Shown here: one piece after another, positions 5,926 through 7,453 of the stretch
Layout: every line of letters starts with the position of its first letter
Numbering within the stretch: position 1 is the stretch's first letter
NCBI GenBank assembly: GCA_027322375.1
Contig: DAHVRS010000383.1
Coordinates: 1-23,815 of the forward strand
DNA length: 23,815 nt
Direction of reading: 5' to 3'
From: Brachybacterium sp.
Lineage (GTDB): Bacteria; Actinomycetota; Actinomycetes; Actinomycetales; Dermabacteraceae
The notes under the pieces: model-generated
Seen by the model: the letters and a program-made list of their open reading frames with translations, nothing else
The model's database searches: none
What the model was told of the DNA's origin: nothing
Position numbers and translations under genes: made by a program

Positions 5926-6357
5926 TCAGAACAGGCCGGGGATCACCTCCTCGGAGGTCTCGGCGAAGCCCTCCTCCTTCTGCTCGAGGTAGGTCTCCCA
6001 GGCCGGGAGCGACCAGACCTCGAGGCGGTCGAGTGCGCCGATGACGGCGCATTCCCGATCCAGCCCCGCGTAGGTGCGCAGATGGCTCGGGATGGTGATG
6101 CGGCCCTGCTTGTCCGGGATGACGTCCTCCGCGCCCGACATCAGCACGCGCAGGTAGTCGCGTGTGCGCCGGTCGGTGGTGGGCGCCCGACGTGCTTCCT
6201 CGAGCTTCTGGCGGAACTCCACGAGGGGGTACACAGCGATGCAGTGCTCCTGTCCGCGGGTCATGACCAGTCCTGAGGCGAGCTCGTCACGGAACTTCGC
6301 CGGAAAGATCAGGCGTCCCTTGTCGTCGAGCTTGGGCGTGTAGGTGCCGAGGAACAT
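5926..6357 (-). CDS. mraZ: transcriptional regulator MraZ
   Basis: MraZ is an AbrB-fold DNA-binding protein that regulates the dcw operon; in E. coli it represses its own promoter by binding repeated TGGGN boxes. The product (143 aa) has the family start [23 protein letters not shown] and a second swapped-hairpin repeat with [13 protein letters not shown] near residues 81-93. Each repeat carries the conserved DxxGR core. ATG 6357 is chosen because GGAGG lies 6 nt upstream. A GTG two codons earlier directly abuts that GGAGG and cannot use it. The promoter region just upstream carries five boxes matching the MraZ operator rule, so autoregulation is likely. Confidence 0.96.
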
Positions 6358-6395
6358 CTGCACCCTCCTTCACACCGACGCTGACGACCTTGAAA

Positions 6396-6440
6396 CCCCA
6401 TCTCCTCCCAACACGCTCCACTTTACCCCACCTCCCCCCA
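6396..6440 (-). promoter_or_regulatory. MraZ operator: five TGGNN boxes at exact 10-bp period
   Basis: On the coding strand of mraZ, going downstream, the boxes are TGGGG (6440-6436), TGGGG (6430-6426), TGGAG (6420-6416), TGGGA (6410-6406) and TGGGG (6400-6396). Each pair is separated by exactly 5 nt. Direct TGGGN repeats with 5-nt spacers are the established E. coli MraZ target, where three are present. Here four of five fit TGGGN and the middle one has A for G at position four. The array ends about 40 bp before the mraZ start codon. Confidence 0.88.
6420..6425 (-). promoter_or_regulatory. probable -10 element of the mraZ/dcw promoter
   Basis: TAAAGT on the minus strand fits the TANNNT form of actinobacterial -10 elements. 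It would give a transcript start near 6413 and a leader of about 56 nt. It sits inside the MraZ box array, and its final T is the first base of the degenerate third box. The -35 position (about 6443-6448, TCCCGA) is poor. Binding of MraZ here would physically block polymerase. Inference from sequence only. Confidence 0.45.
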
Positions 6441-6659
6441 CCTCGGGACCCAGAGTTGGTGATTCCCGGAGGACTTCAGATGAACACCGCAGGTCACAGG
6501 CGTGGTGTGAAGTGGGGAGTTTTTCCCGCGAATCTGCCTCGGCGCGTCGCTCCACTCCGCTCCCCGCAGCTGGCCGCGCTGCCACTCCCCTGGGCCCGAT
6601 CCGCATCTGCGCAGGTCAGAGCACCCCGCCCCCGCGGATATCGGGCCGTGGGGGCGGGG

Positions 6660-6770
6660 TGGAGGGAGGTGGAGGGCCCCGGTGGAGCGATGTGGGGAAC
6701 CCCGGGGAGGAGGGTGGGAGAAACGCTGGAGGAGGGTGGGAGAGGCGCTGGAGGAGGGTGGGAGGAGGGC
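6660..6770 (+). repeat. five-copy 22-bp tandem repeat containing paired TGGAG-N5-TGGGA motifs
   Basis: Units start at 6660, 6683, 6705, 6727 and 6749; the first is 23 bp and the rest 22 bp. Each has the form TGGAG-N5-TGGRR followed by a more variable 7-8 nt segment. Units three to five are almost identical (AGGGTGGGAG core), and units one and two are diverged. The first T is G in unit three. The internal 10-bp offset and TGG core resemble MraZ boxes but lie on the opposite strand, some 235-340 bp upstream of the mraZ promoter. The role is unknown. It could be a secondary binding array or simply a purine-rich satellite. Confidence 0.8.
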
Positions 6771-6803
6771 ACCGACCACGTGGTGGGGCGGGCCCGAACG
6801 CAC

Positions 6804-6834
6804 GAGGACCCCGGCTCATCGAGCCGGGGTCCTC
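6804..6834 (-). terminator. hairpin terminator after the DUF3040 gene
   Basis: A perfect 14-bp inverted repeat (GAGGACCCCGGCTC 6804-6817 / 6821-6834) with a 3-nt loop lies about 95 nt past the stop of the DUF3040 gene. There is no clear T-run, which is common in high-GC actinobacteria. It would insulate the mraZ control region from upstream transcription. Confidence 0.7.
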
Positions 6835-6929
6835 AGGGGTTCAGTGTCGACGTGGTGCCGACTGGTGGGGCGCAGTGGTGGAGCGGGCGGGAGCAGGCGC
6901 GGTGGGGCGGGGGCCGTCGCGCCGTGCGG

Positions 6930-7346
6930 TCAGAAGCCGGAGTCGTCCCCCGCGCGCTTCTCCCAGCGCTCCTCCATCTTGCGCAGGAAGGAGCCATCGT
7001 CACCGGGGCTGTGCGGGGTGGAGCCGCCGCCGTGGCCGCCGTTGCCGCCGCCGGGGCTGCCGCTGCCGGTGCCCTCGGAGGTGCCGCCGGGGGCGGTGAC
7101 CGCGTAGACCGCGCCGGCGAGCATGCCGATGAAAGCGATGACCCCGAGCCAGACGGCCGGCAGGCTCACGGCGAGCACCAGCACGCCGAGCCCGACGACG
7201 ACGGCGCCGAGGCCGATCAGGATGCGCCGACCGTTGCGGCGCGGTGCGCGCTGGGGCGCGAAAGCCCGCGCGAGGCGTGGATCGTCGGCGAAGAGCTGAC
7301 GCTCCATCTCGTCGAGCATCTTCTGCTCGTGTTCAGACAGCGGCAT
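6930..7346 (-). CDS. DUF3040 family small membrane protein
   Basis: The 138-aa product begins MPLSEHEQKMLDEMERQLFADDPRLARAF, the hallmark N-terminus of the actinobacterial DUF3040 family. Function is unknown. Two adjacent membrane spans are visible at about 41-60 and 63-84, with RRNGRR before the first. They are followed by a Gly/Ser/Pro-rich linker and a charged C-terminus (RKMEERWEKR). The start is set by AAGGAG 7 nt upstream of ATG 7346; an upstream in-frame start at 7400 would add 18 residues without support. DUF3040 genes commonly lie near the dcw cluster and dinB in actinobacteria, as here. It is transcribed toward mraZ but ends in its own terminator. Confidence 0.9.
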   Translation of the reverse strand: MPLSEHEQKMLDEMERQLFADDPRLARAFAPQRAPRRNGRRILIGLGAVVVGLGVLVLAVSLPAVWLGVIAFIGMLAGAVYAVTAPGGTSEGTGSGSPGGGNGGHGGGSTPHSPGDDGSFLRKMEERWEKRAGDDSGF

Positions 7347-7453
7347 GATCCCGCTCCTTGTCCCCGTCCTCTCGCGCCGTTCGGCGCTCCGATCGCCCAC
7401 GGAGGCGAGTGGCCTCCATCGGCGGTCATCCCAGTTTAGAGCGTGTTCCTGAG

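Follow-up and report, generated by a model that had tools for sequence, protein, structure and literature searches.

What function would a tandem repeat of about 22 bp serve upstream of mraZ, being built from boxes that resemble those of the MraZ operator and that lie on the opposite strand? MraZ is a widespread bacterial regulator heading the division and cell wall (dcw) cluster, and to our knowledge little is known about the use made of its ring form on DNA in vivo. The repeat is found in a contig of 23,815 nucleotides (hereafter the window) from an assembly of Brachybacterium sp. that is 74% complete, with 567 contigs and 2.68 Mb. The closest named relative of its MraZ is from Brachybacterium paraconglomeratum (95% identical), the next named relatives being also from Brachybacterium, and rsmH (PF01795) comes after mraZ in the dcw cluster. 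The original prediction offered three readings of the repeat: a secondary MraZ array, a looping partner for the operator or a variable-number repeat. The comparison described here (Table 1) shows that the element is more than a tandem repeat; it is best read as a set of putative auxiliary inverted MraZ operators, and the array probably works together with the MraZ operator.

Table 1. Features of the mraZ upstream region, in window coordinates.
Feature	Position	Strand	Evidence
mraZ, first gene of the dcw cluster	5926-6363	-	Pfam PF02381 (MraZ), E 2e-40; MraZ relatives in the PDB, E 1e-21 to 6e-21
Main MraZ operator, five TGG boxes at exact 10-bp pitch	6396-6440	-	CCA at 6398, 6408, 6418, 6428 and 6438; predicted from sequence
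TAAAGT, probable -10 element inside the operator	6420-6425	-	Invariant in the genus; -10 role putative
GCAGGTCA, motif 1	6489-6496	+	Fixed at 72-73 bp from the operator anchor
Proximal inverted box pair, GTGGTGTGAAGTGGGG	6502-6517	+	37/38 genus genomes, 52/78 order genomes
GCAGGTCA, motif 2	6611-6618	+	Second CAGGTCA, found in most genus genomes
Distal inverted box pair 1 (repeat unit 1)	6659-6674	+	Exact GTGGAGNGANGTGGRG match; position common to the genus
Distal inverted box pair 2 (repeat unit 2), with the best conservation in the genus	6682-6697	+	Comparison of genus genomes
Repeat unit 3, first box changed to GGGAG (first T lost)	6704-6719	+	Sequence comparison
Repeat unit 4, CTGGAGGAGGGTGGGA	6726-6741	+	TRF, pattern search
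Repeat unit 5, 16 bases identical to unit 4	6748-6763	+	TRF, pattern search
Hairpin after the DUF3040 gene, probable terminator	6804-6834	-	RNA fold -37.2 kcal/mol, z -7.35
Upstream neighbour of mraZ, a DUF3040 gene on its strand	6930-7346	-	PF11239, E 3e-25

The repeat array is located between the hairpin that follows the DUF3040 gene and the mraZ promoter. The hairpin has no T-run and is not listed by a simple terminator scan; it would nonetheless be a probable terminator, separating the DUF3040 gene from the dcw control region. A scan of positions 6300-7400 for sigma-70 promoters and terminators found nothing. Structured RNA was considered as a candidate and discarded, because the array folds no better than its shuffles (z of +0.43 on the plus strand and -1.09 on the minus strand) and the two Rfam matches in 6300-7000, at 21 and 19 bits, are well below their gathering scores (91 and 74).

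To place the array in context, the mraZ upstream regions of 38 Brachybacterium genomes were compared, together with 78 other genomes of the order and 46 genomes from other orders of the class, an incomplete sample; the collections hold one genome per species. The operator anchor is present in all 38 genomes of the genus, and it is the main operator only, not the array, that overlaps TAAAGT. No conserved -35 was seen in the genus alignment. Moreover, three genomes without a MraZ match (L258, L259 and L260) keep upstream of rsmH the sequence GTGGACTAAAGT, a decayed MraZ box with TAAAGT, which suggests that the TAAAGT of the operator is a -10 element and that the boxes decayed once mraZ was lost. 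In L258 and L259, not in L260, TTGACC is found 16 bp before TAAAGT.

The array itself comprises five units, the first step being of 23 bp and the others of 22 bp, so the predicted period of ~22 bp holds for the later steps and is one base short for the first. Tandem Repeats Finder (TRF), run on the window, confirms the repeat with both periods, 22 at 6706-6764 (94% match) and 23 at 6658-6722 (72%). A unit consists of two GTGG(A/G)G boxes set 10 bp apart on the strand opposite to that of the MraZ operator, with plus-strand TGG boxes at 6660/6670, 6683/6693, 6715, 6727/6737 and 6749/6759. The claim that the array shares the 10-bp offset of the operator is thus borne out, since array pairs and operator boxes are both at exactly 10 bp. 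The predicted form of the unit, TGGAG-N5-TGGRR in all five, is more than the sequence allows: a TGG-N7-TGG pair is present in four of the five units, whereas the first box of unit 3 (at 6705) is altered. Also, a 15-mer common to units 4 and 5 is absent from all of the other 163 upstream regions compared. Units 1 and 2 had been taken for diverged copies, but they have the form conserved across the genus and are not decayed. Judged by this comparison, they are the older, conserved core of the array, and units 3-5 are a local expansion. Species-specific extensions of the array are found elsewhere in the genus as well (for example in G011, G018, G029 and G035), and differences between species in copy number and spacing agree with the idea of a variable-number repeat. 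In addition to the conserved status of units 1 and 2, the original prediction had overlooked the proximal inverted pair at 6502-6517 and the two CAGGTCA motifs.

Inverted pairs were searched as GTGGNGN4GTGGNG with up to one mismatch, 50 first-order Markov shuffles serving as the null. Among 37 genus genomes, a pair is found upstream on the strand of the array (the plus strand) in 37/37 and on the other strand in 2/37, whereas in the shuffled genus upstreams a mean of 5.2 genomes, and at most 10, have one. The same bias is observed in the order, with 68/78 genomes on this strand and 2/78 on the other (shuffle mean 7.7), and it fades in other orders of the class, where the counts are 20/46 and 12/46 (shuffle mean 2.7); a plus-strand pair is lacking in 10/78 and 26/46 genomes, respectively. 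In a control stretch 700-1065 bp away, plus-strand pairs occur in 2/34 genus and 1/78 order genomes, and minus-strand pairs in 0/34 and 4/78. By position, distal inverted pairs are present in 33 of the 34 genus genomes with enough sequence (11% in shuffles), the positions of units 1 and 2 included. For the order, the proximal pair is found in 52/78 genomes, the distal pair in 52/78 and both in 36, compared with 1.3% (proximal) and 6.9% (distal) in shuffles; for the other orders of the class, the figures are 7/46 proximal and 16/46 distal.

These pairs are also specific to the locus. In the 38 genus genomes, GTGGAGNGANGTGGRG has 34 matches in 23 genomes (five for a reversed-pattern control), and 30 of them, in 22 genomes, are at most 500 bp upstream of mraZ. 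A repeat scattered at unrelated loci, the outcome named beforehand as contrary to the original prediction, is therefore ruled out, with only 4/34 matches off-locus. Two of the four (G017 and G019) are at the same place, ~8.5 kb from the mraZ start, and the other two (G026 and G031) are elsewhere; each of the four is covered by a long open frame on one strand or the other, although this says little where the DNA is GC-rich. The suggested genome-wide search for TGGAG-N5-TGGGA in the 2.68-Mb assembly gave four matches, namely one inside the operator (6406-6420, minus strand), one each in units 4 and 5 and one elsewhere, against one match for the reversed control. Moreover, seven genomes without a MraZ match were examined for rsmH and four had an rsmH match; in these four, no inverted pair was found on either strand within 1500 bp upstream of rsmH (0/4). 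Three of the four share a genus code, and at most two independent losses are represented.

A resemblance between the auxiliary and the operator boxes is apparent beyond their common core, GTGG(A/G)G. Over genus and order genomes, the counts for the free fourth base of the TGGN box are A140 G127 T17 C2 for the operator and A170 G148 T29 C3 for the auxiliary boxes, C making up 30-31% of these upstream regions. Related genomes are, however, numerous in these counts, and the search for the anchor gives a slight preference to A or G at this base of the operator boxes. When 37 genera are compared, the A fractions of operator and auxiliary boxes are weakly correlated (rho 0.34, p 0.04), and auxiliary boxes also track GC content (rho -0.33, p 0.05). 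Taken with the locus specificity in the genus and with the lack of pairs in genomes without mraZ, the same box and the similar free base support well the proposal of a secondary MraZ array, the MraZ sites themselves being predicted.

Between the operator and the array, the proximal pair is 84-86 bp from the operator anchor in the genus (85 bp in the window). Across genera, it is found at 84-88 bp in 22 of the 35 having one, at 96-99, 106-108 or 117-120 bp in 12 genera and at 135 bp in one, and the distinct positions are periodic (p 0.0165). Motif 1, with at most one mismatch to CAGGTCA, is present in 37/38 genus and 39/78 order genomes and precedes the proximal pair by 12-13 bp in the genus. 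The sequence from the operator to motif 1 is little conserved, mostly at 0.0-0.7 bits per column, with a few columns up to 1.5 beside the motif. The composite CAGGTCA-N3-6-GTGGNG was tried as a regulon marker and rejected, since it occurs in 37/38 genomes with most of the matches listed at other places.

The cleanest stepping in the genus is that between the CAGGTCA motifs, rather than that of the GTGG pairs. For 35 genus genomes, the spacings from motif 1 to motif 2 are 111-112, 120-122, 133-134, 145 and 156 bp, with a period of 11.25 (R 0.93, n 35), the nine distinct values alone giving a p of 0.0015. The spacing is not one inherited length, since a tree of 33 genomes requires at least seven changes of spacing class among the 30 scored. 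The distal pairs behave similarly, with 80 of 99 (at most one mismatch, 36 genus genomes) within 2 bp of a fitted 11.1-bp grid, where ~45% are expected, and 39/45 when only exact pairs are counted. The 19 pairs off the grid include six in G030 and three in G012, and eight further genomes have one or two each. In the genus, spacings change mostly by ~11 bp while the intervening sequence drifts, a behaviour that a looped or stacked complex would be expected to produce.

Outside the genus, the first distal pair per genus, in 34 genera, has a period of 11.05 (R 0.54, p 0.00025), a value obtained against uniform positions, maximised over periods 9-14 and under a null that treats genera as independent, which they are not fully. 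However, in a replication with 13 named non-Brachybacterium loci at period 11.05, the phasing is not significant (R 0.39, p 0.135). Distal pairs in two loci of the Dermabacter group step by 19 bp, off the 11-bp grid (L202, at 290, 309 and 328; L203, at 290 and 309), as do those of L216 (259 and 278), and those of L205 step by 22-23 bp. Because the order-wide replication is not significant and some loci step by 19 bp, phasing is claimed here for Brachybacterium only. The idea of a looping partner for the operator is accordingly favoured by the ~11-bp stepping within this genus and is less clear across the order.

A comparison with known systems places the array close to a MraZ operator. The core site of Mollicutes MraZ is (AAAGTGKN3)3, octamer binding being mentioned (PMC5282649), and the Burkholderia cenocepacia operator consists of four 7-nt repeats with 3-nt spacers, the octameric MraZ complex being toroidal (PMC7761207). 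The array has in common with such operators the GTGG(A/G)G box, the direct repeat at 10-bp pitch and the mraZ locus. However, it is inverted relative to mraZ and upstream of the promoter, about 220-325 bp from the edge of the operator and without promoter overlap, and it carries two boxes per site, followed by a 12-13-bp step to the next unit instead of at least three contiguous boxes, with up to five sites 22-23 bp apart. Because box and pitch are those of a MraZ operator, whereas contiguity and promoter overlap are not, the array is not classed as an ordinary one. In the lac system, extra sites of the promoter's own repressor (O3 and O2) are used and helical phase matters (PMC1762422). Candidate extra sites are present here at a similar distance: the centres of the operator and the proximal pair are ~90 bp apart, near the 92 bp from lac O3 to O1, and the steps are of the size of the helical repeats, 11.08 and 11.60 bp, that were fitted to DNA looped in vivo in E. 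coli (PMC1762422). Nonetheless, MraZ differs from the lac repressor in being a ring on direct repeats, with auxiliary sites that are inverted and arrayed, and looping would here be a deduction from the sequence. The available portions of the open-access literature describe no inverted, upstream-arrayed or looped MraZ sites, which is not proof of their absence in print.

From box identity, strand, position, conservation and the ~11-bp stepping of most genus spacings, all of them established by comparison, we infer MraZ binding, DNA folding and repression. We lean slightly towards a model where the array forms the distal portion of a group of auxiliary MraZ operators, MraZ oligomers folding the promoter. 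According to this model, an oligomeric MraZ ring would bind the five-box operator over the probable -10 element, and MraZ would also bind inverted two-box sites centred ~90 bp (proximal) and ~250-340 bp (array) upstream. The DNA would fold back as a hairpin, and the inverted auxiliary boxes would then point the same way as the operator boxes. Such an alignment would explain the near-invariant inversion of the boxes in the order. One ring, or two stacked rings, would hold both segments and tighten the autorepression of the dcw cluster, and the copy number of the array, raised from two to five units in the window, would tune this repression. Against the model, the auxiliary sites have two boxes at 10 bp and then a 12-13-bp step, unlike the contiguous known operator with its three or more boxes. 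Also against it are the distal pairs off the grid, the weaker phasing across the order, the fading of the strand bias in other orders, the weak correlation of the free base, the small number of independent mraZ losses and the fact that the cleanest stepping belongs to the CAGGTCA motifs.

A wider proposal, advanced tentatively and on balance rather doubtful, is that a folded nucleoprotein switch would control the start of the dcw cluster, both in Brachybacterium and in a large part of its order; in such a switch MraZ rings clamp the operator and the helically placed inverted arrays in an antiparallel hairpin, and lineages tune their division genes by adding or removing 22-23-bp pairs. We know of no earlier looping-type architecture for MraZ, and this would be the first, a ring-protein variant of operator looping. 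Conserved inverted boxes with helix-sized stepping lead to a testable prediction, phase-dependent repression by a ring protein, and the array sizes across species provide a natural series relating dose to output.

The same box evidence would also fit a sponge, or reservoir, that binds MraZ at the inverted boxes without any loop and sets the threshold for filling the operator, copy number tuning the threshold. The variation of copy number and position between species agrees with such a role, as does the failure of the cross-order phasing to replicate in the named set. However, a sponge requires neither a fixed distance nor a fixed strand, whereas the proximal position is restricted and periodic and the strand hardly varies within either the genus or the order; this explanation is regarded as unlikely. 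It is quite improbable, too, that the GTGG pairs and CAGGTCA are merely MraZ-like and belong to another protein, either an activator or a response regulator such as MtrA. The fixed placement of CAGGTCA in the genus with respect to both the operator anchor and the proximal pair would be in keeping with a second protein, as would the lack of a visible conserved -35. In Dietzia, MtrA binds the mraZ promoter by EMSA (PMC9602371), an example of a candidate second regulator on an actinobacterial mraZ promoter, and this work makes MtrA a candidate for a CAGGTCA-linked factor. Nonetheless, no MtrA motif was identified in the window locus, and the Dietzia motif, described as seven imperfect TCG (PMC9599347), is unlike CAGGTCA. 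Moreover, the boxes are like those of the operator in their core and in the composition of the free base, the examined genomes without mraZ yielded no pairs, and the composite CAGGTCA-GTGG pattern is not confined to the mraZ locus.

Two further explanations dispense with a binding protein. Slippage in GC-rich DNA would give a neutral tandem repeat, and the near identity of units 4 and 5, with their 15-mer in 0/163 other upstream regions, fits a recent duplication. As an account of the whole element it is very unlikely, since conservation of units 1 and 2 and of the proximal pair extends over the genus and a large part of the order, the strand and locus bias is strong, and the interval between motifs 1 and 2 steps by 11 bp although TRF reports no tandem array for this interval of the window. 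Folding of the G-rich strand into a G-quadruplex controlling mraZ, as proposed for the S. aureus mraZ promoter (PMC11796246), has in its favour the G-rich DNA at mraZ in both cases and a canonical G3 motif upstream on this strand in 18/37 genus and 19/78 order genomes. However, overlap with the motif is limited to 13/74 exact genus pairs and 15/97 exact order pairs, and neither 10-bp pitch nor helical stepping would be needed for such a structure. Conservation here follows the TGG boxes and their pitch, not G-tracts, and within the distal pair the T of GTGG is one of the best conserved bases. Four G3 tracts are not conserved at the pairs, and a G-quadruplex is rejected as a conserved feature, its control of mraZ being extremely improbable.

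Some minor observations were made in the wider collection. Between the distal array and the DUF3040 gene, beside the terminator hairpin, L014 and L018 contain short tandem repeats, GGCACT-type hexamers in the former and TTCAGTGC-type octamers in the latter. In one genome (G168), two matches each cover most of MraZ, with 58% and 56% identity to the query, and an mraZ match with one internal TGA (G088:C6:58928-59344) could be a sequencing error or a pseudogene. Finally, inverted MraZ-like pairs stepping by 12 and 22/23 bp form long arrays in the genus coded g7 (G129, which is L145, and also L156, L149, L140 and L146); in G129, where the array is at about 220-421 bp from the operator anchor, 13 matches were counted, overlaps included, corresponding to 12 distal ones and the proximal one.
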